A stretch of DNA of 64,000 nucleotides, from assembly GCA_964023275.1 (NCBI GenBank), contig OZ029921.1, positions 1,316,501 through 1,380,500 of the forward strand. Reading direction: 5' to 3'. A program made the position numbers and the translations under genes. Below the pieces are notes generated by a model. The model saw only the letters and a program-made list of their open reading frames with translations, was not told the DNA's origin and ran no database searches. The number at the start of each line of letters is the position of its first letter. Position 1 is the first letter of the stretch. Shown here one piece after another: positions 8,101 to 56,539 of this stretch. This DNA is from Norana najaformis (taxonomy: Eukaryota > Annelida > Clitellata > Crassiclitellata > Hormogastridae).

Positions 8101-8121
8101 GAAAATTGGTTACAATTGCCG

Positions 8122-27219: not shown

Positions 27220-27762
27220 TTAATAAATCGTTTTATCTTTAATCCTTGGCGACACACCGATTTTTAAATTTTCCTTAGTCATCCATATAAGCACCCAGTC
27301 AATATATACATCAGCCAGTAATTTATCGGATAGTTTTATGGATTTTCCGTTTATTTCGGATGTCGTAGAGATTATAGGCCTAATCTCCGGTGTAATAAGC
27401 CAATCAATATCTGCCATAGAACTGACTATATAGGCAGTAAATTTTACTGCGTATGATCCAGCTCGTGAAAAATTGGTTCTAAGTGCGCGGCCAGCTAATC
27501 TTAGGTGCAACTCTGAGCAGATAATTAGCACAATACAGACTGGGTATCCATCCATCCATTCATCCATCCATCCATCCATCCAGCCGCACATACATAAGTA
27601 AACAGTCCTGCGTATATCTGACCCATCCCACGAACGCTGCAACAATTCACTTATAATCTCTGCGCGGTAATTAACTGAAAACGCTCCCCTTCCACAAATT
27701 TTATCCCGACTCTCCCTCTTCTCCTTATCTATCATGCAGATCCAATTCCAAACACCATTCAC
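27220..27762 (-). other. Unassigned open frame, probably not a gene
   Basis: A 180-residue minus-strand frame. Its first about 20 codons lie in a family B SINE and a middle part (WMDGWMDEWMDG) is a CATC microsatellite; the remaining C-terminal 80 residues match nothing I recognise. Probably chance. Confidence 0.2.
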
Positions 27763-27930
27763 CGTTGCTGTCTGTCTGTCTTGCCCGCCTGACCCTTGGA
27801 GATTGACCTGGAACCGAATCTGGCCTTCCTGTCTATCGCTTTTGTTTTGACTGAGCGCCTGTGAATAATCTGGTTCCCTCGACTAAGTCCTTTGGGCGCT
27901 GTAGAAATCTCGAGTTACGATTACGATTTA
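27735..27930 (+). repeat. SINE-like family B, near full length
   Basis: Full set of family words: CAATTCCAAACACCATTCAC, TGACCTGGAACCGAATC, TTGTTTTGACTGAGCGCCTG, AGAAATCTCGAGTTACG and an ATTACGATTTA tail. Confidence 0.85.
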
Positions 27931-33303: not shown

Positions 33304-33744
33304 GTAGCACTAAACGGGGCTGCTAATTATAAATGCTCGGCTGACAAGCCAACGAACCCTTGAACATCTGACAAAATAGGTCATGTTTTGTTTTTGCGAG
33401 CAAGCTGTATTTTCAACCAATTACATTATATTTAAATAGGTCTAAATTTGGTCCTGCCACGCCAGCTAATTCACTGCCGTAGGGCCAATCACAGTACTAA
33501 AATAGGGCATAAATCTGTACAAAATTATTTCATTTTATTACTATTGACTTTTAGAATTTAATTTAAAATGCAAGATCACAGCAGCATTTGACAATTCCTG
33601 TCAAAAAGGGTGAAGTATTGAGGTATTGGGAAGCCGGACGAACTCGCCAATACTTCACGCTTGCGATTTCTGCGCCTGGCTTTCACTCAAAGCTGAAAAT
33701 ACTCCTCTCCTACATACCCTATCCTGATTCCGCCTCTTCTCCTT

Positions 33745-33952
33745 ATCTATCTCACCGCCCCAATTACAAGCACCATCCATCCGCCGTCAGCCCTCTGCCG
33801 TCTGCATACTTGACCTTTGGATCTTGACCTGGACGTGCATCTAATCCTTCCTGCCTATCGAGTTTGCTTTGACTGAGCGCCTGTAAATAAGCTGATTTCC
33901 CGACTTAGCTTTCTTTGGTCACTGTAGAAATATCTAGTTCAACGATTACGAA
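33745..33952 (+). repeat. SINE-like family B, near full length
   Basis: Words in family order: CCCCAATTACAAGCACCATC, GGATCTTGACCTGGA, TTTGACTGAGCGCCTG, TAAATAAGCTGATTTCC and a TTCAACGATTACG tail. Confidence 0.8.
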
Positions 33953-35659: not shown

Positions 35660-35842
35660 ATGCAGAGAGTAAAAGTTGTAGTTTCCGGAGATGGAGGCAT
35701 CGGCAAAAGTTCCCTTGTCATTACTTATTCAACCGGAACATATCCAAGGGAATACGTTCCGACAGTGTTTGACAATTACATCAGTGAAGTCCAGTTCAAC
35801 AACGAGACTATTTCTCTTTTGTTGTATGATACGGCCGGTCAG
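35660..35842 (+). CDS. RHOBTB: RhoBTB exon 1 (P-loop, switch I, DTAGQ)
   Basis: 183 nt, 61 codons, ends exactly at Gln61; donor CAG|GTAAAC. Reading past the donor gives a spurious extension. Confidence 0.92.
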
Positions 35843-38800
35843 GTAAACTCAAATTTGGTCACAGTATGCATTCTGCCACAAGGGTGGATATTGGAAGGGG
35901 CTGAAGGTCCCCATCTGAGCTTGAGAGGGAAGCCATTGAGTTGGCCATCAAACTGGTTATGGTTGGGTTCCCTCCATATTCCACACTGTGTTTTATCAGG
36001 ATTTGTGTATGATGAATCGTATTATAAGGTGGTTCCAGTGTATTTTATTCAAGAACCAGTTAAGTTTACAGATGTTTATATATATTTATTCAGTTGCATC
36101 ATGTTAGCATTCCTACTTACAAAATACAATTTCTTATATTGTACCACGAGGTTGTGGTATGACGAGGTTGTGTTATGATGAGGTGGTCTAACAAAATTTA
36201 CCAATTGTTTATTCTTTTATTGAGTTACATTTCATATTATTTTGTGCACCAAGGTTGTGTTATATTTGAGGTAGTGTTCTAAGATCAGTTTTTTCGGCTA
36301 ATAAAAAATAATTTAGTTTTTAATAAAAGAATTGTGTTACTAAGTTATTTTAATTATGTAATATAATGCAACTTATTTTAATTCAGTTTCAGTGTTTACA
36401 ACTTTACACTGTTTTCAGTGTTTATTGATTGATAAAAATAATGAAATTTTAGCACAAAATTCCATAATTGTTCAGTTCTGGAACCTTTTTTTCTAGAAAA
36501 AAAGCACTGCCAGAGACTGAATAATTAGATTTACCAACTATTTGTGTTTTTATCCCGTTGCACTCCATTGTAATGTATGACGACTCTGTGTTTTAGAGTT
36601 CCCAGGTTCAGTTAACTTTGTGTGATGATGCACGTTTCATGGAGACTCCAGTGCATATATATTTTGCAGGAAGATTACGATCGACTGAGGCCTCTTGCTT
36701 ACCCGGGAACAGACGTCTTTCTTGTCTGCTTCGCTGTTGATAGACTACCGAGCCTACAGAATGTCCGAGAGAAATGGATTCCCGAGATTAGACACTACTG
36801 TCCAGACACGCCTATCATTCTTGTTGGATGCAAATCTGGTAGGAGAATGTTTAAATCTGAAGTTGAATGCATGTTGTGTGCGTATGTATGGATGGATGTA
36901 TGTATGTATGTGTGGACTTTGCAATTGTAATTGTAATCAGAAATTTGTATAGTGACACTCCAAGAGAAACTAATCAGCAGAGCTTTCTGTGCTAGCCTTA
37001 ACGATATTAGATGTTGTTGAGAACAGAACATTCATACTTTAGAAAACATTGCTCTGATAACTCGAATAGTGGTAAGCTCAGACACACATGGAGAGCTCTA
37101 CCAACAAAGTCCCAGCTATGGTTGAAAGATGACAGCATGTTCAGAGTACCTGGAGCACATAGCTTTGAGAATGAGGAACGACAAAGGTGATGTGTGTGTT
37201 GTATGCATGCATGTGTGTAGGGCCTACATGCCAGGTATGCATGTGTCTATTTATGTATGCACTTATGTATACGTTTGAATATTTTAAGATGCTATATAAA
37301 TTACCGCATTTTAAATTGAGGCAACTTAAGAATCCCATTATACAAAATCCTAGGAAGCTGCATGAATTTTACCATTACGTTGCCAGTACATTACATAATA
37401 TCTTCTATTTTTAGATCTCCGGCATTCCAATCATGTCTCAGGGTGCATTCCTAAAGACGATATAAACAAAGAAGCTGCAAGTCTTGGCCTAAAATACATT
37501 GAGACAAGCGCCCGGGAGAAGGATCGGCTGGATGAGTGCATTCAAGCTTCGGTAGCTATTCAGGACTCATCATACTTACTAATGAGTTAACTTCTTAGGT
37601 CTTGAAAGCAGGTCTCATCATACTTGTGTTTGAGTATTCCCTTTAGATCTTGAAAAAGTATTTCGTCACACTTTCTTAACAGTATTCTCCACTGATCCTG
37701 AAGAGGATTTAACACTTGCTCGAGGCTTTTGCTTGCTGATCTTGAAAACGGGTTCATGGAATTTATGGGTAGTGACCTCAGATCTTGAGAAAAGAGACTT
37801 GTCATAAACTCTGCCACTAGCGTACTCGTGTAGTGCCAGTCCCAAGCCTGCATAAAGGAGGAAGGCGACGTCAACGGTCCTTGATGCCTTAAGATGTCGT
37901 TAAACATTGGAACTACTACTGCTAGACTTGTGATACTTTACTGAATAGAGGACAGTTGAGCAACAATTACTGTTTAATTTTACTGAATAAAGGACAGTTG
38001 AGCAACAATTACTGTTTAACTTTACTGAATAGAGGACAGTTGAGCAACAATTACTGTTTAACTTTACTGAATAGAGGACAGTTGAGCAACAATTACTGTT
38101 TAACTTTACTTAATAGAGGACAGTTGAGCAGCAATTACTGTTTAACTTTTCTGAATAGAGGACAGTTGAGCAACAATTACTGTTTAGCAACAATTACTGC
38201 TTAGAATTTTGTCAATAACAATTCTTTTTTGGACTGTTCTCCAGATATCTCTTCAAGGTATTTACACAGGAATATGATGGCCATTAAGGGTTGAGCATCG
38301 TAATGTCAACCACTTGCTTGACGTTACATTGTATTGTTACATAGATGCTGTTCCTACATAGGTAGCTGAAGAAATATTTTGAATGGATCTTAAGTTGCAT
38401 CTTTCTATATCTGTTTGAAAGACAAGTTTTAGTACCTTTAAGAGGTTCTGTAAAGGCACTATGTATATAGCCAGTGATGTAATTGAATTCCTTTTGTTCT
38501 AGTTGAGCTGTTGTATTGGTGCAAATGCGAAAAAGCGTTCATCAAAGCTATCCCGGAAAAAGAAATCTGAGCTCATAGCACCAGTCATGCCACCTGCAGG
38601 TTTGCCTGTATGGAAAGTTCTGATCATCATGTCGTATTCATAACTGGCACAACATCAAACGATGATTACTTTGAAACAAAACTGAATTGTAAATCGCCAA
38701 ACTACAACACAGAGAGAATACTAAAAGCCAATAAGAAAAACTCCAAAATAGAAATATTGGTGTAATTTTGAGCTATTTTTAGCATTTGAGAAGTTCCAAA

Positions 38801-41800
38801 ATTGTAATCTTTTGGCAAGAACTGGTTGAGGTCCATGACGCATAAGATATGAACCATTAACTAATCGTCTCTTCTCATGTTGCACCTATTTAGATCAGTT
38901 GTACAGCCTGTGGGGCTCACTGTTGTCTGGTGGTCTGGGCCAAAATCTGGAAAAATGGTTCCAGCTCGTGGCCTGGTAACGTACAAAACCTCCATTCTAG
39001 TTACAAGATCAGAAATGCGATGCTGTACTGCTTCATACGAGTTATTTGTCTTGTCTTTACGCCTACGATTCCTCGCTCAGCCGATGGACACATGGCGTGT
39101 TAACAAATGTCTTACTTACTCTTACTTACTTGTTGCTAGGAAGGGCGCCGTCGATTGAAATTGTAACATCGGTATTTGGTGAACAGTGGAGAGAAATGGT
39201 CGATTGTCCAGAATACGCTGATGTCGTCTTTTTGACATCCACTGGACATCGTTTCATGGCGCATAGAATCGTTCTCTGCTGTGCGTCTGAGATTTTCTGC
39301 CAGATTCTCCTGGGTGACTTTGGTGTAGACGTAAAGGTGCTATATAAATTCTTTGATATAATATGTACATGAATTAATTGCATTTATACAAGATTAAGAA
39401 ATCGTGGAGTGACGTGAACCATGCAGTCTGTGAAGGAAAGTTTTGAACTGCTGTGTGTGCTCGCTTCAGTGAGTAGGGGTCATTCATGAAGGACATCTGC
39501 AAAAATGGGTAAGGAGGGATCACTGAAATGTGGACAAGACGGCATTGAAATCCTCAACTGTTATTGTGGGACATTCAAGGAGATGGCTAACAGAGTTTTT
39601 CAGAGTGCTGGAACTTTGGGTTATGTCCCAAATTCATAATAAACAATAGGCCGGCACTATTAATCAGGCCGATAGTATTATTATTATTATTATTATTATT
39701 GTTATTATTATTATTATTATTATTGTTATTAAACCAAAGAATCATGTCTCAAGGATGAAATGAAAAAATTATGTTTGAGAGACTTGTTTCATCTGGATTG
39801 GCTTTATTATTATTATTATTATTATTATTATTGTAATTGCATTCTGTTTATTTTCCTTCCATTGTGTTTTGCTCAGAGCCAAGAGACAGATTACAAAGAC
39901 GATGTCTGTAAACGCTCACGAGAGCAGATCCATGCCGGTCTACTTCCGGGATTCACAAAGATCCATGACGAAGAAACATCAAAGGAGGGAGACCTTATGA
40001 CTTCACAAACTGTGATTGAAATGAGTGCAGATGTTTCTGCGACTGCGTTTGTTAATGTTCTGCAGTTCCTTTACTCAGGTTACTGGTTGCATTCTTAGTC
40101 TAGCTTTATTATTTTCACAATAGGAATGCTAATGTGAGCACTATTTTACACCTTTTGCTGGACTAGATTGAGGGCAGATCAGGTGTTTAAAGGTAAGGAT
40201 GGGTAAATTAAGGTACGTTTTGTGTTATGCCAATTCGGCTGGGTTATGAAGTCTAAGACTTTGTCCACCTGACTTGATCTTGACTTCTGACTCTTTGACG
40301 CTATTGCTGCAAGTCTTTCAAGTATTAATCAGAATCAAGCTGAAAGATTAATGCTCTATAACTATGTCCTTGACCTCTAACACTTTGATGCAATCATCGC
40401 TTCGTGCTTCGGTCACTTTGACATTTATTCTTGTCCTCTAACACTTGACCTTTGTTCTTTACCTCTAACACTTTGACCTACATCCCAGACTTCTAACACT
40501 TTGACCTTTATCCATGTAACCTGTCTGTCTGACCCCAAACTCTTTCACTTTATCCGTGACCTCTTGTTTCAGGTGTTCCAAGCATCAACAAAGAATCAAC
40601 TGCAAAGGAGATTGAAGAAGTCCGTGAGGTGGCGCGAATATTCAAACTTGAGTACCTGGAAACAATCTGTGTGAACCTCCAGAACAACGAGGAATTCTTT
40701 AATCCAAGCATTGGCACCTTCCTCAATGACAAAATGGGACAGCGACTCAAGGACCTCTTCCTCAACAAACGTCGATTTGCTGACATAGTCTTCATTGTTG
40801 AGGGTAAGTGCCGCATGTTGGTCTGTTGTGCAGCAAATGTTCTATCGTCTGCTGTGCAGCAAATGTTCTTTGGTCTCTTGTGCACCAAATGTTCTATGGT
40901 CTGTTGTGCTGCAAATGTTCTATGGTATGTTGTGTAGCAAATGTTCTATCATCTGCTGTGCAGCAAATGTTCTTTGGTCTCTTGTGCACCAAATGTTCTA
41001 TGGTCTGTTGTGCTGCAAATGTTCTATGGTATGTTGTGTAGCAAATGTTCTATCGTCTGCTGTGCAGCAAGTGTTCTTTGATCTCTTGTGCACCAAATGT
41101 TCTATGGTCTCTTGTGCAGCGCGGTCGTCTGTTGTGCAAGAAAATGTTCTATTCTGCAGCATGGTGGTGCGTTCGGTAGAACACTGGGTATGTAATTTAA
41201 CGATTGTGAGTTCGAGGCTGCAAAACGAATTGCTTATAATGATGGGCCAACTTTGAAGCAGACTTACAAAGTGATGCTCTGTATTGTTTATGTTTTAGGA
41301 ATTTTGAAGCAATAGTAGTATATGGTTAGCTCAGATGCAAGGGATCTTGGAATGTTATTTTTCAACACGGGATTTTCTCAGTCAGAAGACAGAAATTTCG
41401 AAATGTTTTATTAACAATCTTACTCAAGAGCATCAGATAATACAATTATTAAGTGATTTTTTACTTAGAAACGAAGATCTATGCTCACCGAGTGGTTCTG
41501 TCTGCAAGATGTGATGTCATGAAGACCATGTTCTCAACGAGTTTTCGTGAGAGCAGTGAATTCGAGGTAGACTTTTATAAGGCATTGTCTTAAAACAGAT
41601 CTCAAGGCGTTTTAGTGTTTTTGGAAACATAGCGGTGTATGTCTTGTTGAACATAATCCCTTTTTAGTAGACTGCAACTTTTACACTTAATATTTTAACC
41701 CCTAACGCTATGCCTCGCAGTCTTATTGCTGACTGAAGCATGTGCTAAGTTAAATTAGTAACTTTTCTCTCATTATCTTGCCTAACCTAGCATTACCTAG

Positions 41801-44800
41801 CATAACCCTATCCTACCCTTTCTTGCCTGAAATTACCTTACGTGATCATATTTCACCTAACTTGACATTTTTAAAGCTTATCCTCAACTTATATCTACTT
41901 GTCTTCCGTCTTTTCTAGTTATCTTAACTTATCGTACATTATCTGACCTTACCGGACTAATCTTTCCTTACCTTACTAACCTTTCCTTGCCTTACCTAAC
42001 CACCAAACGTTAACCTATTTTATCTTAACATTCCATACCTGAACTTTTTCACACAACATTAACATCCCTGACCTAAGCTTAACCTACCCTATCTTCCTAT
42101 TTGACCATTTCTCTCCTTCCCTTATCTGACATTTACCTGGCATACCCTACCTTGCATTTCTTTACATTACCTTTGCATTTTGCCCGGGCTTCTTGAATGG
42201 ATTATGATTTTTGACTGCAGTTTCACTTCAAGCGACAATTGATGTGTTGCGCATCGTGACAACAGTGTTACAGAATTTATTAGATTAGATTTGATTAAGC
42301 AGAGACTAGATTAGATTAACCTTCCCTAATGTTGTTCTGTTGTAGTTTGAACTTCCTGAAGTTCCTTTGACACTTCTGGAATACATCTACACAGCTCACG
42401 CGCCGATCGAAGACGGTGACTCTGTCTACATCATGATTCTTGCCAATCAGTATCTCGTCAAACGCCTCGTTAACCTGTGTGAGCTCTACATTACGATGGA
42501 AGTCGATCGATCAGTGGTCAAGAACATCCAGAAGTCCAACATTGATGTCATTGGCTTGCTAATTTCCTCACAGGTGGGCTGATTTTCTTCGGGACCTCTG
42601 TGAGTTTTCAAATGGCATTATATAAATATTTAGAAAATACTTACTTACAGGTTAGCTGGTTTCACCACAGGTGGGCGGATGTTTTGTCACAGGTAGTGAA
42701 TTAATTATGTTACAGGTGAGCTGATTTTTTACAGATGAGGTGATATCACCATTTAGCCATCCTTTTCACAGTTAAAGTTGATGCTGCCACAGTTGTTGTT
42801 GCCGTCGATGATGATGATGATGATGACTGCGGCACAATGGTCTTTTTCGGTATCATCCAATGATTGTGGGTTTGAGCCTGCTGAGCAGGCTTCATGTGTC
42901 GACTATGGACAAGTTGTTCACCCGCGTTTGTCTCACACCTCAGATTTGCTGAACTTGCACAAGTAATAAATAAGTTAATTAATTAAATAAAAAGCTTTTC
43001 CATTTCCTTTCCAGTTACATAACGCCGAGCAGTTGGAAGAGTGATGTTTGCACTTCATTGCATCCAATTACCTGGCATTTGTTGAACGGAAGGAGTTTCT
43101 CAAGCTGACTGGAGACAATCTCTTCTACATCGAGGAGCATCGCTGGCCTCCAGTCTCCTACCTGCAAGAGGTGGAAAAGTACGAGGCGGAAATGCGGAAG
43201 TTCAACCCCAAGGCATGTTCGGTGATGTGATCAAAAAGGAGAGACACCCAGTCCATATCGGACGCAAGCTTTCAAACTTTCTAAATGGCCATTGATCTTT
43301 TGAATTTCAGAACTTCTATAGTATATCGCCAATGCCATAAAGCTTGAGGCATTACTGATGGTTGGTTCAAGCAGGGTACAATATGTAAGGGAAGGGGAGA
43401 CTTCCCCTTTCGGATTGGTGAAGACCATCTCCAAACGAAGATATGTTTTCCTGTCCATCGGCCTTTCTTCCACTCTAGTTCAGGTTATGTCGCTCTGAAG
43501 ATAGATTTTCACAATTCATTTCACTCCTGGCCATGGGTCTTTCTTTTCTTAGTCCAGACTTGTCTTCCATTAAAGACACCTGTGTATTTTTTCCTGGTGT
43601 TTTCCCAACTGATTCAGACTATTTCCTACAGAAGATGCCCATAACAGCAACGTCGTATGTTGGACTTGTGAATCCCATATGACAGTATTCCCATATGGGC
43701 TTCATATGTCCCACATTTGTAATTGAAATTGCTATCAAGACATTATGTGCAATAAATCTGTGCCTTCTCTGGTTTTACTTTTGTAAATGTATTCTGAAGA
43801 TGTGTATATATATATACCTATATTTGCATATAAAGAAATTACTGACTATATTTCATATATTTGTGACCGTATTTCAGATATCTGTATTTACTTTATTTAT
43901 TTATAATGCTCTAAACATCAAACGATGGCTGCTTCTCTCGCCTTAAAACACAACCTGTCCAGTTCCTTCCCGCCTTCTCTCTCTGGTCTTCTGGCAGCCG
44001 GACTTGGTTCTTGACATGGCATCTTTGGACAGCCCAACTAACTTGATGCATGAGGTGGTGCCTGCTCTTAGCTTTTAAGCAGCACTTTAGAAATCTGGAG
44101 ATTACAATTAGATTGTGAAACTCGTAATTCGTTGGATCAGCCTGGTTGAAACCTGATGGGTCAGTCAAACCTTAAGTCAAGGTATGAGGGGCAGGGCCTG
44201 TCGGAGGGGAGCCGGCAGGGCCAGTTGGGCCGGGCTTCACATAGAGAAGAGGCCTCAGATTTTGAAACAAGTTGGTATGTAAAAATTATTAATATTATTT
44301 TTTTCTTTTTTGTATTATAATTCACAACTGCGATTTAGTAGGCTTATCGTGTGTGCGTGCTTCGATAAGTAAGAGGCCCCGGACCTGTCTGAGTGACTGA
44401 AACCTTTGATGAGAGGTGAGCAGGTTTGATGATTCTTACGTATAGACCCAAATGACATTTTCTGCACTTTAGACAGGTATACATGCGTACGGACATTGAG
44501 ACTTATGCAATGCCTAACGAAAGCTTAGTCGTAGGAACCAGCTTATTCACAGTCGCTGAGTCAATTGGCAGGAAGTGCAGTTCAAAATCAGGATCCAAGA
44601 GTCGGGCAGACAGGCAGTCAGGTCGCTACGCTTGAGGCAGATTCGAACCTCCGACCATCCGGTTACGAGGCAACGACCATACCACTACACCACTGCGTCC
44701 CACGATTACATACATACACGTAAGCAAACAAATGGCAGAGCGCACAGAACTGAGCAATGAATTCCAGTTTTGGATCCGCCACCAACACAACACTCAACAC

Positions 44801-45250
44801 TTCTGGTGCGAGGCAGAGCAAGGGTCAAATTATTCGCTGGTCCAGTGCAATATTATTGTGTTGGCAAAAGGGTAAACAAGAATCAGGGATAGGTCAGCCG
44901 ATTTAAGGGTAATACCTTGTGAACCCTAAGACAGGATAAAAGGAAACGTTCCAGCAGTCTTGCGAAAGAGAAGGCACCTAATGAAACGGTGAGAAGATTT
45001 AACAGATTTCACAAGACCATCTTCTGAAAACGGTAAGCCGAAAAACTTAGCCATAGTGTTTAAAAATGCGTGCAAGCATGACTGTGTTGGGTTTTGATCA
45101 AGTACTCTATATTGAGTATTATAATGTACTTTGGTTTTGATATAGGCCTACTACGCAGAATTTCGAATTTTTTTCTTGTGTAAAATTCGACATTCGCGGA
45201 AATTCATATAAAGCCTCTAGTTAATTTCAAAAAACAGGTTCATAATGTAA

Positions 45251-45283
<33 letters not shown>

Positions 45284-48200
45284 GCAGCTCAGCCGAGGCT
45301 GGAAAGGGAGCTTTATGAGTTTAAAACTCAACAATCGTCATATGATATTTAAAAAAAATTCGTCCACCGACGTCGTTTAACTGTTGGAATCCATCGAAGC
45401 CTCTCTGGCTTAGGCGTAATTAAGACATATGGGAGGCGCTCATCTCTGGGTCTTTGGCCTTTGATCCGGCATTGGACGAATACAATGTCCTGGAATAATA
45501 GGCCTACTGCTTGGTGACAGAAGCACGTGTGTGAGCTAACTATTCGCCTGGGTCTTTCCACGGAGTCCTCTCAGCAGCCTCGAAGCTGCAATCGTTGCAT
45601 TACAATAGTAACATCAGCATTGTATGGGTTATGCATTCTTCAGTAACAGAACAGTTATTTGAGATTTTCACTTCTTGAAATTTCGTGAACCCTAATCCGC
45701 TGTGAAGATTGGAGGACTGGGACATGGCTAACGAAGCCGCCTGAAGCTGAAAACATGACTTGTTGTTAAATTCAGCGCTTTTGTGATACATAAAAGGCGC
45801 TAATTACCTTGTACATACATGCATACATACATACCATTCATTCATTCATTCATTCATGCATAACGAGTGGTCTATACGTATCAAGGGACTCGTGAAACTA
45901 ATGTCTAAACATTGATCCAATGTGCTGTTTAAAAACCGTGGTGCAATCTGGCGAATGCAAATGAAACATTTTTCAAACGCACGCATATATGTACACAAAG
46001 CGATAGCAAATTAATTCTGGTTTTACTTATGCCTATGCTCGAGGATTTCTTTAACCGCGTTTTTATAAATAAAAAGGAGCATAAAACTAGTTAAAGTATT
46101 TTTATAAGAAGAAAGACTGAGGGGAAAATATGTTAATTAGATGTGGGCCATGGATCGACACCTCTATTTTCAAAGTCAGTCTGCGACGCCTATTTTCTGC
46201 GACGTCATTTTACAGATATACATTTACGCTACATTTCAGTAAATTTCACTGTGCTCTGGGAAATGTTACTCAAATGCACCAGCATTATGTAATCATGGCC
46301 AACCCATGCGAAAGGGTTTTCTGAGAAAGGGTACCCTATGGTAAATTAAGGTTCGGGTTCGTCCTGATTATAGATTTTGTTTCGACTGAGCACTGGTGAA
46401 TAAGCTGGTTCCAGCGACTTAGCTTTCGTTAGAATGGAGCCAATTTTTAGAGCCATATATAAATTGGAAAAACAAAAATACATAGTAAAATATGCCTACA
46501 TGAATACATAGTATAGATACATACATACATACATACATACATACATACATGTACATACATACATACATACATACACGCACACATGCATAGAGGGCTTTGA
46601 GTCGATGCTGGCCGGCTGAATCGCTGCTGCGCGGTTCTGTGTCGATGCTGGCATGATGTGCGCCGATGCTGGCATGCTGTGGGTCGATGCTGGCAGGCTG
46701 TGCGTCGATGCTGGCAGGCTGTAAGTCGATGCTGGACGGCGAGGCGTCGATGCTGGCAGGTTGTAAGGGCGATGCTGGCCGGCGAGGCGTCGATGCTGGC
46801 ATGCTGTAAGTCGATGCTGGCAGGCGAGGCGTCGATGCTGGCATGCTGTGCGTCGATGCTGGCCGGCGAGGCGTCGATGCTGGCAGGCTGTGGGTCGATG
46901 CTGGCCGGCGAGGCGTCGATGCTGGCAGGCTGTGCGTCGATGCTGGCAGGCTGTAAGTCGATGCTGGACGGCGAGGCGTCGATGCTGGCAGGTTGTAAGG
47001 GCGATGCTGGCCGGCGAGGCGTCGATGCTGGCATGCTGTAAGTCGATGCTGGCAGGCGAGGCGTCGATGCTGGCATGCTGTGCGTCGATGCTGGCCGGCG
47101 AGGCGTCGATGCTGGCAGGCTGTGGGTCGATGCTGGCCGGCGAGGCGTCGATGCTGGCAGGCTGTGCGTCGATGCTGGCCGGCGAGGCGTCGATGCTGGC
47201 ATGCTGTGCGTCGATGCTGGCCGGCGAGGCGTCGATGCTGGCATGCTGTGCGTCGATGCTGGCCGGCGAGGCGTCGATGCTGGCAGGCTGTAAGTCGATG
47301 CTGGCAGGCTGTGCGTCGATGCTGGCCGGCGAGGCGTCGATGCTGGCATGCTGTACGTCGATGCTGGCCGGCGAGGCGTCGATGCTGGCATGCTGTGCGT
47401 CGATGCTGGCAGGCTGTAAGTCGATGCTGGCAGGCTGTGCGTCGATGCTGGCCGGCGAGGCGTCGATGCTGGCATGCTGTGCGTCGATGCTGGCCGGCGA
47501 GGCGTCGATGCTGGCATGCTGTGCGTCGATGCTGGCCGGCGAGGCATCGATGCTGGCATGCTGTGAGGCGATGCTGGCATGCTGTGCGTCGATGCTGGCA
47601 GGCTGTGCGTCGATGCTGGCCGGCGAGGCATCGATGCTGGCAGGCTGTGCGTCGATGCTGGCCGGCGAGGCGTCGATGCTGGCATGCTGTGCGTCGATGC
47701 TGGCCGGCGAGGCATCGATGCTGGCATGCTGTGAGGCGATGCTGGCATGCTGTGCGTCGATGCTGGCAGGCTGTGCGTCGATGCTGGCCGGCGAGGCGTC
47801 GATGCTGGCATGCTGTGCGTCGATGCTGGCCGGCGAGGCGTCGATGCTGGCAGGCTGTAAGTCGATGCTGGCATGCTGTGCGTCGATGCTGGCCGGCGAG
47901 GCGTCGATGCTGGCATGCTGTGCGTCGATGCTGGCCGGCGAGGCGTCGATGCTGGCATGCTGTGCGTCGATGCTGGCCGGCGAGGCGTCGATGCTGGCAT
48001 GCTGTGCGTCGATGCTGGCATGCTGTGGGTCGATGCTGGCCGGCGAGGCGTCGATGCTGGCAGGCTGTGGGTCGATGCTGGCATGCTGTGCGTCGATGCT
48101 GGCAGGCTGTAAGTCGATGCTGGCATGCTGTGGGTCGATGCTGGCCGGCGAGGCGTCGATGCTGGCAGGCTGTGCGTCGATGCTGGCCGGCGAGGCGTCG

Positions 48201-51200
48201 ATGCTGGCATGCTGTGCGTCGATGCTGGCCGGCGAGGCGTCGATGCTGGCATGCTGTGCGTCGATGCTGGCCGGCGAGGCGTCGATGCTGGCAGGCTGTG
48301 GGTCGATGCTGGCCGGCGAGGCGTCGATGCTGGCAGGCTGTGCGTCGATGCTGGCCGGCGAGGCGTCGATGCTGGCAGGCTGTAAGTCGATGCTGGCAGG
48401 CTGTGCGTCGATGCTGGCCGGCGAGGCGTCGATGCTGGCATGCTGTGCGTCGATGCTGGCCGGCGAGGCGTCGATGCTGGCATGCTGTGCGTCGATGCTG
48501 GCCGGCGAGGCATCGATGCTGGCATGCTGTGAGGCGATGCTGGCATGCTGTGCGTCGATGCTGGCAGGCTGTGCGTCGATGCTGGCCGGCGAGGCGTCGA
48601 TGCTGGCATGCTGTGCGTCGATGCTGGCCGGCGAGGCGTCGATGCTGGCAGGCTGTAAGTCGATGCTGGCATGCTGTGCGTCGATGCTGGCCGGCGAGGC
48701 ATCGATGCTGGCATGCTGTGAGGCGATGCTGGCAGGCTGTGCGTCGATGCTGGCAGGCTGTGCGTCGATGCTGGCCGGCGAGGCGTCGATGCTGGCATGC
48801 TGTGCGTCGATGCTGGCCGGCGAGGCGTCGATGCTGGCAGGCTGTAAGTCGATGCTGGCATGCTGTGCGTCGATGCTGGCCGGCGAGGCGTCGATGATGG
48901 CAGGCTGTGGGTCGATGCTGGCATGCTGTGCGTCGATGCTGGCAGGCTGTAAGTCGATGCTGGCATGCTGTGGGTCGATGATGGCCGGCGTGGCGTCGAT
49001 GCTGGCATGCTGTGCGTCGATGCTGGCAGGCTGTGGGTCGATGCTGGCATGCTGTGCGTCGATGCTGGCAGGCTGTGGGTCGATGCTGGCCGGCGAGGCG
49101 TCGATGCTGGCAGGCTGTGGGTCGATGCTGGCATGCTGTGCGTCGATGCTGGCCGGCGAGGCGTCGATGCTGGCATGCTGTGAGTCGATGCTGGCAGGCT
49201 GTGGGTCGATGCTGGCATGCTGTGCGTCGATGCTGGCAGGCTGTGGGTCGATGCTGGCATGCTGTGGGTCGATGCTGGCAGGCTGTGGGTCGATGCTGGC
49301 CGGCGTGGCGTCGATGCTGGCATGCTGTGCGTCGATGCTGGCAGGCTGTGGGTCGATGCTGGCATGCTGTGGGTCGATGCTGGCAGGCTGTGGGTCGATG
49401 CTGGCCGGCGAGGCGTCGATGCTGGCAGGCTGTGCGTCGATGCTGGCAGGCTGTAAGTCAATGCTGGCCGGCTAGGCATCGATGCTGGCTGTTTAGGGTC
49501 GATGCTGGCATGCTGTAAGTCGATGCTGGTTGATTGTGGTATTTCAAAATTTAACATATAATTTCTCTGTTTGCATATTTAAATTAAGTCATTTATCTTA
49601 CTCTCTGCCCATCACACAAAGCACCTGTGTTGAGATTTCGATATGGGTGTGGCGATGCCAGCTGCGTAATGCAATGCACCTACCTCCTTGCAATAGTTTT
49701 TCCATCTTTCCCTTTTCTATCCTCCAGATCCAATTCCAAACACCACCTACCGTAGGACTGTCTGCCTGCCTGCCTGACTCTTGCATTTTAACCTGGAACC
49801 GAACCCCGAGATTTCTACAGCTGTCAACGAAAGCTAAGCCTCGGGAACCAGCTTATTCGCATACGCTCAGTCAAAACAAAATCGATAGGCAGGAAGGGGT
49901 TTCCAGGTCAGGACCTAAGAGTCAGACACTCAGACGGCTATGGTGGACGGTGTTTGGTATTGAACCGGAAAATGAGACAAAGGCAAGAAGATGAATGACG
50001 ATAGGATTCGTGGAAGAGGCGAGAATATGTTTTTCCCTTTACCACTTCCGCTCCTTATAAAATTAGTTTAATTGATGTTATGCTCCAATGTTTTACTAAT
50101 AAAATCAGTATTTAACTAAAGAAATATCTTTGAAAATAGGTACAAATGTAACTAAATCTGTTACATACAGCCGCCTCCCTTAACAGCTCCTCTTCCCCCT
50201 CTCTTTCTGGTCTTCTGGCAACGGGACTTGGTTTTTGACATGGCAGCAACCCCACTGACTTGACGTATGTATGTAAAATAAGTATGTATTTATGCATGTA
50301 TACATTTGTGTATGTATGTATGTATACTTGTTTGTATGTGTATATGTATGTAAAATATGTATGTGTGTATGAATACATGTATGCACGAATACATATATAT
50401 ATATATATATATGTATGCATGCATGTATATTTGTGTACGTATGCATGTAGGCATGTATGTATGTGTGTGTGTGTTCCCTTTCAGTGGTTACATACTAATG
50501 TTGCATTTGCATCACATTTTCCGAAACCAGTGGATAGTGTAAAATAATCTGTGAAATTGCCTTCATGAAATCCGTGGCACTTTCCAAAAAGAGGTGTCGA
50601 TCCAGAACCCGTATTTAGTGAACGCATTTTCCTTTTTTACTCTCTCTTCTTATAAAATTACTTCAGGTAATTTATGCCCCAATTTTTATTTATTTATTTT
50701 TATTTATATAAAACTCGAAGAGAGACATCTGCACAAGTGAAACCATAATTATTTTAAGATCGCTCTCGTAATTGTAAGCTTGCGTTATTGAAATGTTTCA
50801 TTTGCATTCGCTAGGTGGCAGGACAGTTTTGAAAGAGACCATCAGATCAAATCGCGCGCTGGTTACACGAATCCCACACACGTGTTGACCACTCCTTTAC
50901 GATCTGTATGTCTGCATATCTGTTTGTCTCTGTATTTGTTCGTCTACTGTCTGTCTGGAGTTGGGTCTGATTAGGCAGGTGGTATGCAGGTGCGAATAGA
51001 CTTGTTGACACTATTTCTAAATTAAGTAGGCTTAAGTTCTCTGCTTGCATATAATTATCATATAATTATTAGAGGGGGCGTGTTGGATAGAGCGCTCGAC
51101 TTGTAACAAGGAGTGCCTCTTCTGAGACGGGTACTACATGTGTAGGGACCTTGAGCGAGTGCCTAACTCACAAGGGCTTGGCGCTACCGATTGATGCTAA

Positions 51201-52457
51201 GTCAGTAGATAGTTACGCCTAACAAAGCAGAAATAATAGCTGCCCATCCTAAAGAGCATGTGGTTTGAAAGATTTCAATGTAAGTGTCATGCGGTCCCAG
51301 ATGTTTAATGCACCAGCCCACTTGCAATAGCTTTGTCGTCCTTTCTGTGGTCGGTTGGCCCCCGATTCCTTATTAAATGAGGAAAAGCCTGAAGCAGTCA
51401 GGAAAACCCAAAGGCGGGGGCGAAATGAACTGCGAAAATGTGTAGTCAATGGGAAATTGCCTGTGCAGTCAGTGGCAGTTCCAAGGTTGCTTGCGTGGGA
51501 GGGGAAGGGCATTTCCAGTGGGGCGCGATATTATGGCAGCCCCCCATGCACGAGTCTGGTCTGTGAGACAGTACAAGCAGACGTGTGGGCAGGAACGAAT
51601 TGTTTGGAAATAACACCTATTTTAGAGCGAATTAGCTGGCTTCCCTCACTGGCCGAGTAGTGGGGCTGGCATGGTCCGTACACGGGGACCTGAAATGGCT
51701 TGGCGCCCTTTCAAATGGGCAGCGGTGGTGAAGGATCTCACCCGATCAATTCACTCGAATGAATGAACATCGTAATCGTAATTCCGAGATTTCTACACTG
51801 CCCAACGAAAGCCAGTCACTGGGACCAGCATATTCACAGACGCTCAGTCAAAACAAAATCGATAGGCGAAAGGGTTCGGTTCCAGGACAAGATTCAAAAT
51901 TCAGGCAGAGACAGCATGGCAGCTACGGTGTTTGGTGTTTGGAATTGAGCCAGAAAGTGAGGTAAGGGGAAGAATTGGAACTGTACGATTAAAATTAAAA
52001 TCACGATTAAAATTACGATTATAGTAGCTGATGTAAACAGACACGTCTGTTGAAATGTTTCATTCGCATTCGCTACCCAATTAGCGACCCAATTAGGTCA
52101 ATTCTGTCAACCTTTACACGAATCCCGTGCACGTATTGACCACTCTTTTACATTGTTTCTCTGTGTGTATGTCTGCCTGTCTCGGTGCATGTCTGTTTGT
52201 CTATGCTTTTGGCGCATAAACATTTTAGTTGCTGGACTTAAATGTTGGAATTCCCTTCCTATGTCGGTTCGTTCGGCTCAGTCGCTTCTGTCATTTCGTT
52301 CTCAACTTAAACTTCCCTGTTTCAAATTGCTTATCCACCGTAGGCTGCCTCTCTGTCTTGTGGTCTGACCTTCTGGATATCGACCTGATTGTGGCTTGGC
52401 TTTGGTGCGCCATCGGTTGATGCCTTGTGCATTATACACCGGCGCATTAGAAGTTTC

Positions 52458-52490
<33 letters not shown>

Positions 52491-52893
52491 CGATGATGAT
52501 GACGGCACAGTGGTCTATCCAGTAGCGTCTCGAGGCCATAATCCAATTATTGTGGGTTGAAACCTGGACAAGTAGTTCGCACATATTTATCTCACGCTCT
52601 AGATTCAGATTTACCCGCCTTGTAAATAATAAATAAATTAATTAATTAAATAAAACGTTTTTCCATTTCCTTTCCAGTTGCATAACGCCGAGCAGCTCGA
52701 AAAGTGGCGTTTGCACTTCATTGCATCCAACTACCTGGCGTTTGTCGAACGGAAGGAGTTTTCCACGCTGACTGGAGACAACCTCCTGTACGTCGAGGAG
52801 CGTCGCTGGCCTCCAGTCTCCTACCTGCAAGAGGTGGAAAAGTTCCAGGCGGAAATGCGGAAGTTCAACCTCAAAGCATGTTCCGTGATGTAA
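35660..52893 (+). CDS. RHOBTB: RhoBTB GTPase: Rac-like G domain, two BTB domains, CaaX end; ten exons
   Basis: Exons: 35660-35842, 36670-36838, 37415-37551, 38503-38599, 39140-39330, 39877-40078, 40573-40803, 41469-41566, 42346-42573, 52678-52893. They give 583 residues with every join in phase. Residues 1-170 are a Rho-family G domain with P-loop GDGGIGKSS (10-18), switch I VPTVFDNY with Thr35, DTAGQ with Gln61, CKSD, and ETSA. A basic linker (about 170-195) leads to BTB1 (about 215-330, with an insertion near 259-310) and BTB2 (about 395-500). The last exon carries the RhoBTB C-terminal block ([19 protein letters not shown]) and ends in CSVM, a CaaX box as in RhoBTB3. RhoBTBs act as Cullin-3 adaptors and in vesicle traffic; the G domain here looks fully canonical, closer to amoeboid RacA than to vertebrate RhoBTB1/2. 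A nearer duplicate of the last exon (43015-43230) has an in-frame stop. The acceptor TTTTCAG before the start implies a 5' UTR exon. Confidence 0.9.
36670..36838 (+). CDS. RHOBTB: RhoBTB exon 2
   Basis: 169 nt after acceptor TTTGCAG. Encodes [18 protein letters not shown] and PIILVGCKS; donor G|GTAGGA splits the Asp codon of the CKSD motif. Confidence 0.92.
37415..37551 (+). CDS. RHOBTB: RhoBTB exon 3
   Basis: 137 nt after acceptor TTTTTAG. Restores D-L-R of the CKSDLR motif and encodes [12 protein letters not shown] (G5 motif). Donor TCG|GTAGCT. Confidence 0.9.
37937..38210. repeat. 42-bp minisatellite in RhoBTB intron 3
   Basis: About six copies of a 42-bp unit containing GAGGACAGTTGAGCAACAAT. 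The length is a multiple of three, which creates the overlapping [13 protein letters not shown] frame; not coding. Confidence 0.95.
38503..38599 (+). CDS. RHOBTB: RhoBTB exon 4 (basic linker)
   Basis: 97 nt after acceptor TGTTCTAG. Encodes [16 protein letters not shown], a basic stretch placed like the polybasic end of Rho GTPases. Donor GCAG|GTTTGC. Confidence 0.8.
39140..39330 (+). CDS. RHOBTB: RhoBTB exon 5 (BTB1, first half)
   Basis: 191 nt after acceptor TTGCTAG. Encodes [19 protein letters not shown], the BTB opening. Donor GAC|GTAAAG is followed within a few bases by the LINE/SINE tail GGTGCTATATAAATTC, so a retroelement tail sits at the exon edge. Confidence 0.85.
39877..40078 (+). 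CDS. RHOBTB: RhoBTB exon 6 (BTB1 insertion and second half)
   Basis: 202 nt after acceptor TTGCTCAG. Encodes a charged, non-conserved insertion then [14 protein letters not shown] of the BTB fold. An (ATT)n run lies just upstream. Confidence 0.88.
40170..40560. repeat. Degenerate ~30-bp repeat in RhoBTB intron 6
   Basis: Drifting units around CCTCTAACACTTTGACCT ending just before exon 7. Confidence 0.7.
40573..40803 (+). CDS. RHOBTB: RhoBTB exon 7 (inter-BTB, start of BTB2)
   Basis: 231 nt after acceptor TTTCAG. Encodes [19 protein letters not shown] then [10 protein letters not shown]. Donor G|GTAAGT. Confidence 0.92.
40815..41130. repeat. 26-bp minisatellite with 104-bp higher-order period, RhoBTB intron 7
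   Basis: Units begin CAAATGTTCT and vary in the rest. Four variants repeat in the same order, giving a 104-bp super-unit present about 2.7 times. Starts 12 bp after the exon 7 donor. The [14 protein letters not shown] frame is repeat-derived. Confidence 0.93.
41469..41566 (+). CDS. RHOBTB: RhoBTB exon 8 (BTB2)
   Basis: 98 nt after acceptor TACTTAG. Encodes [20 protein letters not shown]. Donor GAG|GTAGAC. Confidence 0.92.
41745..42180. repeat. Degenerate ACCTT/CCTAA repeat in RhoBTB intron 8
   Basis: Drifting TTACCTTACCTAACC-like pentamers over about 430 bp. Confidence 0.75.
42346..42573 (+). CDS. RHOBTB: RhoBTB exon 9 (BTB2 end)
   Basis: 228 nt after acceptor TTGTAG. Encodes [19 protein letters not shown] and [16 protein letters not shown]. 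Donor CAG|GTGGGC. The next exon is either 43015-43230 (with a stop) or 52678-52893. Confidence 0.92.
43015..43230 (+). pseudogene. RHOBTB: RhoBTB last exon, proximal copy with in-frame TGA
   Basis: Acceptor TTTCCAG is intact and phase matches exon 9, but the tenth codon is TGA (43042-43044) where the distal copy has TGG (Trp). Otherwise the frame stays open to the same CSVM end and differs from the distal copy at 11 of 71 positions, including the stop. It keeps a Cys and a His (HRWPP) that the distal copy replaced by Arg. Use of this exon would give a 521-residue protein lacking the C-terminal block and CaaX box. It may be a pseudoexon, an alternative terminal exon, or a sequencing error. Confidence 0.85.
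43965..44110 (+). repeat. SINE-like family J copy
   Basis: Words TCTGGTCTTCTGGCAGCCGG, CTTGACATGGCATC, TTAGCTTTTAAGCAGCACTT. Related copies at 50183-50265 (5' part) and 61615-61765. Its 3' half resembles family B. Confidence 0.65.
44516..44620 (-). repeat. SINE-like family B copy (reverse)
   Basis: Minus strand carries the CTGTGAATAAGCTGGTTCCT core and upstream GACTCTTGGATCCTGAT words. Confidence 0.7.
44625..44705 (-). repeat. tRNA-derived SINE (family D), 5' part
   Basis: Minus strand reads GGGACGCAGTGGTGTAGTGG then a B box GGTTCGAATCT. Matches the head of the longer copy at 63200-63400. The A box TGGTGTAGTGG fits the Pol III consensus. Confidence 0.8.
45240..46370. other. Gene-free stretch in RhoBTB intron 9
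   Basis: (AAT)n at 45252-45282, a LINE-like or SINE-like segment at about 45349-45600 weakly similar to 13268-13522, and CATA/CATT runs at 45815-45855. No exon seen. Confidence 0.45.
46372..46440 (+). repeat. SINE-like family B, partial
   Basis: CTGAGCACTGGTGAATAAGC then GGTTCCAGCGACTTAGC; truncated before the tail. Confidence 0.7.
46518..46580. repeat. (CATA)n microsatellite beside the 21-bp array
   Basis: Clean CATA units immediately left of the large minisatellite. Confidence 0.95.
46601..49533. repeat. Large 21-bp minisatellite in RhoBTB intron 9
   Basis: About 140 head-to-tail copies of a 21-bp unit starting GTCGATGCTGGC. Nearly all variation is in the last ten bases, giving a few recurrent types (AGGCTGTGC, ATGCTGTGC, CGGCGAGGC, AGGCTGTGG, AGGCTGTAA). 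Longer blocks repeat too: the sequence around 46724-46930 recurs about 235 bp later. Because 21 is divisible by three and most units lack stops, several frames are open on both strands, including 1036 codons (minus, [14 protein letters not shown] heptapeptides) and 875 codons (plus, [14 protein letters not shown]). I read these as by-products, not genes: neither end joins conserved coding sequence, and the minus frame runs into the CATA microsatellite. Confidence 0.95.
49725..49990. repeat. Head-to-head pair of family B SINE parts
   Basis: 49725-49806 is the 5' part of family B in plus orientation; at 49807 it switches to a nearly complete minus-orientation copy (to about 49975). The result is an imperfect palindrome. 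Confidence 0.8.
50183..50475. repeat. Family J fragment and (TATG)n microsatellite
   Basis: 50183-50265 matches family J. It is followed by TGTATG/TATA repeats to about 50475. Confidence 0.8.
51070..51240 (+). repeat. tRNA-related SINE, family E
   Basis: A tRNA-like head GGATAGAGCGCTCGACTTG, then TAGGGACCTTGAGCGAGTG, matching 14870-15000 in order. Confidence 0.55.
51470..51570 (-). mobile_element. hAT-type MITE, copy 3 (partial)
   Basis: Begins CAGTGGCAGTTCCAAGGTTG and aligns with the reverse complement of the copy at 6029-6171 through CCCCCCATGCACG; the far end is not recognisable. Confidence 0.65.
51655..51775 (+). repeat. SINE-like family C copy
   Basis: GGTCCGTACACGGGGACCTG, TGGCGCCC and GGTGGTGAAGGATCTCACCC in the same order as at 56740-56895. 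Confidence 0.75.
51777..51960 (-). repeat. SINE-like family B, near full length (reverse)
   Basis: Minus strand has the TTTGTTTTGACTGAGCGTCTG core and AGAAATCTCGGAATTACGAT tail. Confidence 0.8.
52198..52500 (+). mobile_element. LINE 3' end with family A tail and (GAT)n
   Basis: Encodes an ORF2 tail with [18 protein letters not shown] and [10 protein letters not shown], stop at about 52366, then the family A 3' UTR (GGCTTGGCTTTGGTGCGCC, CATCGGTTGATGCC) and a (GAT)n run. 5'-truncated, so no catalytic domain. Confidence 0.8.
52678..52893 (+). CDS. RHOBTB: RhoBTB last exon, distal intact copy
   Basis: 216 nt after acceptor CCTTTCCAG, in phase with exon 9 across a 10.1-kb intron. Encodes the RhoBTB C-terminal block and ends KACSVM then TAA. 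The CaaX box predicts prenylation. Confidence 0.85.
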   Translation: MHNAEQLEKWRLHFIASNYLAFVERKEFSTLTGDNLLYVEERRWPPVSYLQEVEKFQAEMRKFNLKACSVM

Positions 52894-53774
52894 TGAAAAG
52901 GGGAGAGGCATCTAGAGGAACTTTCTAAATGGCTGAAGATCTAATCGAATCTCAAAACTTCTATAACATCACTGTTGTAACGCTTCAGGCATAACTAATG
53001 GTTGCTTCTAGCAGGTTACAATATGTAATGTAAGAGGGAATTTCCCTTCTCCAATGGTGAAGACCCGCTTCTACCAAAGGTATTTCCTGCCGATCGCGCC
53101 CTTTTCCCTAGTAGTTCAGACTTGTCTCCCACTGATGACACATTTTCGCATACATTCTGCTACTCCCCAAGGGCCTTTCCTAAATGTTTCAGACCACCTC
53201 CTTCTGAAGATACATTTTCTACATTTTTCTTAAAATATCTCTAAGTAAGTTATGTCAGGATATAAGTCTTTGGATAGCTTCGATTTATCACACACACACA
53301 CACGCCCACACACAATTATTGAATATATTTTATGTATTTGAGATATGTAACCACATGTCAGATATTAGAATTTAATTCGACAACTTCTATTGCGCCGTTG
53401 TAATACTGCAGCAGGCATCAATCGATGGTTGCTGCTTGTGACACCATAGTACAAAAATCGTAAACTGTTGGATAAGCCTGGTTGAAAGCTGATGGTTCAG
53501 GGAAACAGGAAGTGCGATGTGTAGACACATCAGTCTTAAGTTTAGAGCTGAATGACATTTATAGTGCTTTTGACAGGAATACATACATGCATAGGCCGAC
53601 ATATTACGTTATCCCGACGCTGCGACATCTGCCCCGGATGAGGGTCTACTGGGCACTGGGCAGTGGTCGTATCGTGTACCGGGGACTCTTGGGACCGCTT
53701 GCTATCACTCCACATCATGGACGCAACTTGATCCAGAAACTTTAAGATCGTGTCTTCCGTCAACTCTGGATATA

Positions 53775-53930: not shown

Positions 53931-53998
53931 TACATGTATATCAAATGTTTAGAATAAAACATACACACATACACGTACATACATAGCCTACAAACATC

Positions 53999-54160: not shown

Positions 54161-55067
54161 CATACATACATAGATACTTACATATAGCCAAATAACTTAC
54201 AGAACTGAGCAGTGCAATCCAAGGGTTGGAAACGACCATCGAGAGCTCAACACTTTTGGCACAGGAAGAGTCGGTGTGCGTTGATGCAGTATTATCTAGA
54301 TGGCGTGAGGATTAACAAGGAACTGGGACAGGTAGGCTGATTTAAGGGTAAAACCTTGAGAGCTATAAGACAGATTTTTAACGGAAAAGTTTATGCAATC
54401 TTTTGTGAAAAAGAAAGAACCCAGTGAAACCGTCAAGAGATTCAACCGGTTTTGTAAGGTCATCTTCCGAAAAACGTTAAGCCCAAAAACTTAGCCATAA
54501 TGTTGAAGACGAAGCATGATGTTAAGAAACGTAGACGAATATATGTTGGGTTTTTATATGAACATGCCACGCAGAATTTCGAAAAAATGTGTTGTATCGG
54601 ATTCGCCATTCGCAGAAAATCATATAAATCCGGTAATTATTACGTGCAGGCACGAAAATTGTAGCGCTATACAAACTACATTAAATTGGTAGAAGTTTTA
54701 GCGGAATTATCCCTTCTTTGGAGGCTTCAAATGGCAACCAGTGGTGTATGTAGTTCTTTTCCAAAAGACAACATTTTGTAATTAAAATTTGGATTTTCGT
54801 GCGTAAGGTAAACGTATATTTACAGTAAATAGTACTATGTTTCATGCGCACTGTGTATATTTATTTGTATTTATTTAAGTCGTTCTGCCAGCAACCTTAA
54901 GCGTATCACATGTGAATAAGTAAGTTCACTGAATAGTTCGGAGTGAACGTGCCAAGACTTGTTGGAGACAGAATAGTCGAGTTATATAGAAGAAATGTAG
55001 CAAACAACAAGCGGCGTTTGAGCGAATTGCAATCGAATGTGCATGCAAGCTTTTTTCGTGCTTTTAG

Positions 55068-55960
55068 TAATCATCATCATCATCATCAGTCACCATGGGT
55101 TCAGCGCCCGTAGGTGCTTGATGCGCGCTTCACTATCCTCATCCAATTGTCTCTATCCTGTGCCAGGTGGCTTAGTTGTTGTAAGGAGCTATTACTGCAC
55201 CAAGAGATGATGTCGTCTACCCACTCTCTGTTGGGGCGTCCTCTTCTGTTCTTCCCTCCCATCCTGCCAAACACTATCGTCTTGAGTATTCTGGAGTTAT
55301 CCATTCGACATATATACCCAAATAATTGCAATTTTCTATGGATTAGTTTTTGGAGTAAAGTTGCTCTTGGTCCAATTTGCTTGTATAGCTCCTCATTCGT
55401 CATCTTTCTTTGCCAACCGATTCTCAGTACCTTCCGATAGCATGTTCTTTCAAATGCCATTACTCTTCTTTCAATTTCTTTGGTTATTACCCACGTCTCG
55501 CATGCATACATGGCCCCACTGAACATGCAAGTATCTAGTACCGTCAGCTTGGTCTTCAGCATTATCTCTTTACTTTTCCAGATGTTGTTTAAGGTAGCGA
55601 GAGCCGCTTTGGCCTTGGCAAATCTTAGAGTTACCTCTCTCTTGCAACTCAGGTCGTGCGTGAATGTACTTCCCAGATATACGAATTCTTTAACATTTTC
55701 GATTCCTTCGCCATCGATTATTATCTGCCGGTCGATTGTGTCGGTGCCAAACACCATCGTTTTTGTCTTTGCCGTGTTTACAACCAAGCCGTATGGCTTA
55801 CTATCTAATACCAATCTCGTTAATGTTCCTTCCAGCTTCTTGCTACTCCCTTCAATTATATCTATATCATCGGCAAACCTCAGGTTGTTTATTGCTAGAC
55901 CCTGCACCAAGATTCCTCCGCCATCCTCTTTGACGCCATCCATGGCTCTTTCTAAAACTG
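55068..55960 (-). mobile_element. RTE-like LINE, 3' half of reverse transcriptase, 5'-truncated
   Basis: A 280-residue minus-strand frame (55943-55101) begins inside the reverse transcriptase palm. It has LAINNLRFADDIDII (the catalytic FADD box), then GLVVNTAKTKTMVFG, EFVYLGSTFT, and a C-terminal region with ETWVITKEIERR, LQLFGYICRM and RRGRPNREWVDDI, typical of RTE-type elements. It ends at TGA and is followed by an (ATG)n-type short tandem tail (55068-55090), as RTE copies usually have. The endonuclease and the N-terminal part of the polymerase are missing. It is a dead-on-arrival copy although the remaining frame is undamaged, suggesting recent insertion. Confidence 0.88.
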
Positions 55961-56168
55961 TAATGACTTACAGAAAGTACAAGGAGCTTCAGATTATAAT
56001 TGAGTAAAAGTTATAAAATACTCTTTATTAATGCAAGGTAAACGCACACCATGGAAATGAAAAGTGTGACTTTGAATCCTTAGGCTTTGATAGCTTTTGA
56101 CTGGTTGGGTTATCATGTGTATGACTGTGTGTATGTTTAAGAGTTCCCACTCGTCCAGGAGTCAAAGC

Positions 56169-56539
56169 ATGGACCAGGCGAGCTATCTGAAAAACCTCTC
56201 GAGCACGCTTTTTGAGCTTTCGAGGGCAAACGTTCTCTGCGATACAACGCTAATCGCGAGTGACCGTGAGTTCAGTGCTCACAGTGTCATCTTGGCTGCA
56301 GCGAGTCCAACCTTGAGGTCGGCATTCCAGAACTCGCCAGATGTGAAAAACATGTACCGGCTTGAACTTCACTGGCTGGATGGCGACACCCTAGAGAATG
56401 TTCTGTTTCTCATCTACACGGGAAACCTAAAGCCGTCTGACAGTAGTAAGGATGAGGATGACTCGATGAATTTGATCATGACATGTGAACAACTTGGCCT
56501 CGACTGGATCTGGTCACAAGTCGACCTTACGCACAAAAA
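56169..56539 (+). CDS. ZBTB-type exon 1 (BTB domain)
   Basis: 371 nt; donor AA|GTAAGT. Contains the whole BTB domain. Confidence 0.88.

Follow-up and report, generated by a model that had tools for sequence, protein, structure and literature searches.

Tandem duplication of exons is common in animals, affecting about 10% of genes according to a figure quoted from a 2002 study (PMC9013439). It may also concern the 3' ends of genes, as in Drosophila pip and PGRP-LC, whose tandem or variable 3' ends are chosen exclusively (PMC9013439). For RhoBTB, the C terminus of which may decide membrane anchoring, published descriptions of this region diverge: a CAAX end is reported for RhoBTB3 (PMC4931677) and for bivalve RhoBTB (PMC4669188), whereas PMC7600811 describes the RhoBTB subfamily as lacking CAAX. 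In the open-licence PMC literature, a search for RhoBTB together with exon duplication returned a single paper, on a Mendelian disease cohort.

Here, we describe a RhoBTB gene of the annelid Norana najaformis with two homologous candidate last exons, located within a 64,000-nucleotide stretch of DNA (the window). It resembles pip and PGRP-LC, as outlined in PMC9013439, in having homologous tandem last exons, each with an acceptor and each a potential alternative 3' end. It differs from them in having just two copies of the exon, which lie about 9.7 kb from each other and are candidate alternative exons, and in the internal stop within the copy nearer to exon 9. The duplicated last exon also sets the gene apart from RhoBTB1/2/3 and bivalve RhoBTB. 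We favour, with a probability of roughly 0.55, the explanation that these are duplicated alternative last exons, that each served as a working ending for the greater part of its existence and that the near one was recently hit by a nonsense change. On this view, the gene most likely had two endings that could stand in for each other and lately lost one of them, which is more probable than a novel type of switch. Last exons duplicated in tandem are already known, and the nonsense change, though unusual, can be explained.

Gene Model and Predicted Protein

The gene extends on the plus strand from 35660 through exon 9, followed by the two candidate last exons (Table 1). In the ten-exon model, the boundaries of which were picked by eye, exons 1–9 amount to 1536 nt (512 codons) and are open throughout, with GT-AG introns; nine exons are reported for bivalve RhoBTB genes.

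Table 1. Coordinates within the window of the RhoBTB exons, the signals around the two last exons and the duplicated segments.
Feature	Position	Strand	Remarks
RhoBTB exon 1	35660-35842	+	
RhoBTB exon 2	36670-36838	+	
RhoBTB exon 3	37415-37551	+	
RhoBTB exon 4	38503-38599	+	
RhoBTB exon 5	39140-39330	+	
RhoBTB exon 6	39877-40078	+	
RhoBTB exon 7	40573-40803	+	
RhoBTB exon 8	41469-41566	+	
RhoBTB exon 9	42346-42573	+	
Near duplicated segment	42852-45223	+	interrupted homology; outermost upstream match weak
Acceptor region, near exon 10	42961-43014	+	92.6% identical to 52624-52677
Near (proximal) exon 10	43015-43230	+	71 codons + TGA; internal TGA at codon 10
In-frame TGA (TGG in far copy)	43042-43044	+	
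ATTAAA downstream of near exon	43569	+	consensus match only
AATAAA, candidate poly(A) signal of near exon	43751-43756	+	consensus match only
Far duplicated segment	52538-54639	+	interrupted homology; outermost upstream match weak
Acceptor region, far exon 10	52624-52677	+	
Far (distal) exon 10	52678-52893	+	71 codons + TAA; ends CSVM
AATAAA, candidate poly(A) signal of far exon	53953-53958	+	first AATAAA/ATTAAA past far exon; consensus match only

The predicted protein starts with a GTPase domain (Pfam PF00071, Ras, E 1e-42, residues 5–162). By eye, its G4 motif (GCKSD) contains the Cys also given in PMC7600811, while its G5 motif, TSA, is unlike the S(V/I/S)(F/V/Y/L) stated there. The BTB family (PF00651, E 4.3e-32) matches downstream in three stretches (best 390–485), from which we infer a bipartite first and a whole second BTB domain, and BACK (PF07707) follows at residues 505–549 with a sub-threshold score of 14.3 bits (cut-off 20.9). 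The Ras domain and the BTB domains are as in the RhoBTB family, to which the weak BACK-like tail may correspond as well, and the product of the far exon closes with a CaaX box (CSVM, read from the sequence; prenylation is putative), as do RhoBTB3 (PMC4931677) and bivalve RhoBTB (PMC4669188). In searches of solved structures, the best 60 of 801 matches to the whole model were all small GTPases or fusions thereof; the BTB part gave 49 matches, none with the name RhoBTB, exon 9 six weak ones, all BTB proteins, and the C-terminal tail a single one at chance level. No relatives of exon 9 were found in a prokaryotic contig collection, nor any of the BTB part plus tail in a viral one.

Two Last Exons

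Both copies of exon 10 are directly preceded by the identical 19-nt acceptor TTTTCCATTTCCTTTCCAG, and from the end of exon 9 (CACAG/gtgggc) splicing would proceed in phase 0 to either of them. Each comprises 213 coding nt plus a stop, continues the frame of exon 9 and ends in KACSVM; at codon 10, the TGA of the near copy corresponds to a TGG at 52705–52707 in the far copy. The predicted products have 521 (near exon) and 583 residues (far exon, ending CSVM), the shorter lacking 62 aa that include part of the BACK-like region and the CaaX box. The intact, in-phase acceptors, the TGA opposite TGG, the near frame that is otherwise open to the same CSVM end and both product lengths had all been put forward in the original prediction, and the spliced model bears them out.

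When the 583-aa model and exons 9 and 10 alone were compared with the window by tblastn, the near and far exon 10 were recovered at E 9e-38 and 3e-46, respectively. Further copies of any RhoBTB exon were not found in the window (E up to 5; only chance matches at E >= 0.35), and a second full RhoBTB gene there was rejected, as no additional copy of exons 1–9 exceeded chance. A/T-rich AATAAA matches also occur immediately upstream of both exon 10 copies. The stretches before the two acceptors (42830–43014 and 52500–52677) include a tRNA B-box-like sequence and an A/T-rich tail and by eye resemble an old SINE predating the duplication; a scan of the window with ARAGORN detected no tRNA.

Tandem Duplication of the 3' End

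Self-comparison revealed a diverged tandem duplication that is detectable over about 2.1–2.4 kb. It comprises matches of 42906–43543 with 52565–53179 (76% identity) and of 44846–45223 with 54285–54639 (69%), with weaker shared stretches upstream that include 42852–42880 versus 52538–52566. In the middle, the alignment breaks down: between 43926 and 44707, identity is only 35–50% in each of the eight 100-column blocks. The two exons are adjacent, homologous, of the same phase and furnished with splice signals, as is characteristic of tandem exon duplication. Since intron and 3' flanks are common to both copies, the duplication occurred at the DNA level, and a retroposed exon copy was rejected. 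Two alleles misassembled in tandem are likewise unlikely, as the flanks differ by 24–26% with 18 gap events. Such divergence exceeds allelic differences in nearly all animals.

Between the two copies lies a 2.9-kb GC-rich minisatellite (46593–49529) with a 21-nt unit (TRF periods 42 and 63). Because this unit is a multiple of three, long open frames arise on both strands, four of them of 902 to 1043 aa, which gene finders may mistake for genes.

Selection on the Two Copies

The coding parts of the exon 10 copies differ at 22 of 213 nt (89.7% identical; 7, 5 and 10 differences at codon positions one to three) and contain no indel. The flanks show 18 gap events (intron 6, 3' 12); among their aligned positions, 52 of 199 differ in the intron and 68 of 283 on the 3' side, which corresponds to distances of 0.321 and 0.290. 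It had been proposed that the coding parts are more alike than their surroundings. This applies to the exon, but the 54 nt leading up to the acceptor are conserved to the same degree (Table 1), so that the conserved tract consists of exon and acceptor region and not of coding sequence alone. The similarity of the acceptor regions is in keeping with both copies having been spliced.

With codon 10 left out, the Nei-Gojobori method yields 9 synonymous differences at 44.2 sites and 12 nonsynonymous ones at 165.8 sites, that is, dS 0.238, dN 0.076 and a ratio of 0.32, the measure suggested as a check in the original prediction. With site numbers rounded, the synonymous class (9/44) does not depart from the flanks (120/482; p=0.59), while the nonsynonymous class (12/166) falls far below them (p=2e-7) and below the synonymous class within the exon (p=0.02); these tests overlap, cover a short exon (210 compared nt) and set the two copies against each other, a pairwise comparison in which changes are not attributable to one copy or the other. 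For one neutral lineage, 3.2–4.5 indels would be expected in 213 nt, against none observed (P 0.011–0.040).

Simulations at neutral distances of 0.24 or 0.30 (1500 runs per setting) applied constraint ratios of 0.05, 0.15 or 0.25 to the working copy and relaxed one copy at a time, with indel rates derived from the flanks, that is, from 18 gap events in one pairwise alignment. If one copy was always neutral, 11 or fewer nonsynonymous codons (11 being the observed figure when the stop is counted) were reached in 0.1–5.6% of runs, and the joint outcome of at most 11 such codons, at most one stop and no indel in 0–0.1%. The joint figure rose to 0–1.7% when neutrality was confined to the last three quarters of the time since duplication, to 0.7–12.9% for the last half and to 7–43% for the last quarter. 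These results disfavour a copy that has been neutral ever since the duplication and indicate that, if either copy was lost, this most likely happened late compared with that event. For the near copy with its one stop, neutrality over at least three quarters of this time has a joint P <= 0.017; a recent loss of constraint would leave no trace other than the stop. The substitution tests, the absence of indels and the simulations thus uphold the earlier proposal that both copies were under selection until recently.

The near copy may not simply be the worse one. Judged against approximate human RHOBTB1/2-like pieces, it agrees at C523, H554 and Y568, the far copy at W522 and Q569, and the match to these pieces is slightly better for the near copy (E 6.9e-8 versus 3.3e-7). 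This does not favour the simple view that the far copy is sound and the near one dead; by the same approximate reference, constraint may instead be weaker or altered in the far copy. Either the far copy is perhaps taking on a different function, or the gene may mainly have used the near ending before the TGA appeared, or this TGA is possibly not fixed. In addition, the net charge (K+R minus D+E) is -4 for the near and 0 for the far copy, a difference that could, speculatively, affect membrane contact near the CaaX box.

Probable Recent Loss of One Ending

We propose that the gene had its 3' end duplicated in tandem, from the end of intron 9 through the last exon and the 3'UTR and beyond, and that it thereby gained two alternative last exons, both with an acceptor and a candidate poly(A) signal of their own. 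Judging from splice signals and frame, both exons probably are, or were, spliced in this manner, and both endings would have been kept working for most of the time since, with the constraint taken from the substitution pattern and the exon use presumed. Later, the near copy would have mutated from TGG to TGA. A transcript with the near exon would now stop after residue 521 and miss part of the BACK-like region along with the CaaX box, and the far exon would be the sole source of the full 583-residue, potentially prenylated protein. By an established rule, a stop in the last exon escapes exon-junction-dependent decay; this decay should hence not apply to the near-exon transcript, and the truncated protein could accumulate. 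Most plausibly, the near exon now represents a pseudoexon at an early stage, or a leftover ending, and its truncated product is probably non-functional. As in nonsense-mutated duplicate exons generally, an in-frame stop interrupts an otherwise intact copy, but unlike a typical pseudoexon the near copy looks constrained until late.

If both endings are used, the locus offers a small natural experiment in the keeping or losing of duplicated last exons. If the TGA is merely a recent nonsense change, it is mainly an annotation matter, as a gene predictor may pick the near exon, giving a truncated RhoBTB, or merge both copies.

Alternative Explanations

It is possible, if on balance unlikely, that the TGA is a segregating null allele or an assembly base error and that both exons are still working last exons. 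This would agree with the TGA being the sole disabling change (one stop, no indel) in an otherwise constrained near copy, and with the residues that this copy keeps and the far copy lacks relative to the approximate human pieces. In one assembled sequence, such an allele or error would look the same as a fixed nonsense change; nothing in the sequence suggests an error, however, and mutations from G to A are commonplace transitions.

More doubtful is a regulated switch, in which use of the near exon would yield a stable, soluble 521-residue form without CaaX and use of the far exon a membrane-anchored form of 583 residues, the TGA being kept. Its intact acceptor, the candidate poly(A) signal at 43751 and the expected escape from exon-junction-dependent decay would permit such a function for the near exon, and mutually exclusive terminal exons have precedents in Drosophila pip and PGRP-LC (PMC9013439). 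However, if function depended on the codons ahead of the TGA alone, codons 11–71 of the near copy should have been neutral since the TGA arose, yet the whole exon is constrained and free of indels; a recent TGA accounts for the same facts. Of the three options in the original prediction (a membrane/soluble switch, a fresh pseudoexon or a read error), the one that fits best is a nonsense change that struck the near copy recently. The points in favour of the switch concern its feasibility, and the truncation would cost more than the anchor: 62 aa would be lost, among them part of the BACK-like region. In a broader and distinctly improbable version, the TGA is kept as a regulated feature, with last-exon choice or A-to-I recoding to Trp setting the balance between a truncated soluble and a full membrane-anchored Cul3 adaptor, and the far copy (charge 0 versus -4) serving as a differently targeted ending.

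Very unlikely, too, is a gene-conversion tract of ~270–290 bp as the source of the exon similarity, with one copy long dead. The similar tract does reach 54 nt upstream of the exon, but this extension is the acceptor region, in which one would expect splice signals. Moreover, conversion would have cut synonymous divergence as well; synonymous sites have diverged about like the flanks and nonsynonymous sites far less, which argues for purifying selection instead.

Hardly credible, finally, is a near exon that serves as a full ending because its TGA is read through or edited A-to-I (UGA to UGG, Trp). The idea of UGA-to-UGG editing comes from an analysis of the coleoid cephalopod editome that allows for the conversion of a stop to Trp (UAG to UGG); the same source describes Aplysia and Nautilus as without extensive recoding (PMC8382921). 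Most of the constrained exon does lie downstream of the stop, and A43044 is predicted to be paired in a local hairpin (P 0.95); however, this fold is unremarkable (z -0.70; 40 of 200 shuffled sequences fold equally well or better), and the only three inverted repeats of at least 16 nt in 42574–45400 (16–19 nt) are all outside the exon. Furthermore, the base 5' of A43044 is G, which ADAR disfavours at this position. Selenocysteine at the TGA was rejected, as the window stayed below the gathering score of every Rfam family, including SECIS, and so was a nuclear code with TGA as Trp, given that no TGA occurs in frame in exons 1–9 and that TGA is also the final stop of the near copy.

Neighbouring Features

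Downstream of RhoBTB, an open reading frame with a BTB match (PF00651), followed by a multi-zinc-finger one (zf-C2H2), indicates another BTB gene on the plus strand (56094–60581), likely a single BTB-zinc-finger gene. It is preceded on the minus strand by a reverse-transcriptase-like fragment (55101–55967; RVT_1 match under the cut-off). Upstream of RhoBTB, a long open reading frame at 20046–22259 matches glycosyltransferase family 92 (E 1.4e-33). A dispersed repeat family of ~190 bp occurs in both orientations at 3546–3732, 8113–8309, 27675–27928, 33693–33951, 49806–49989 and 51769–51974.
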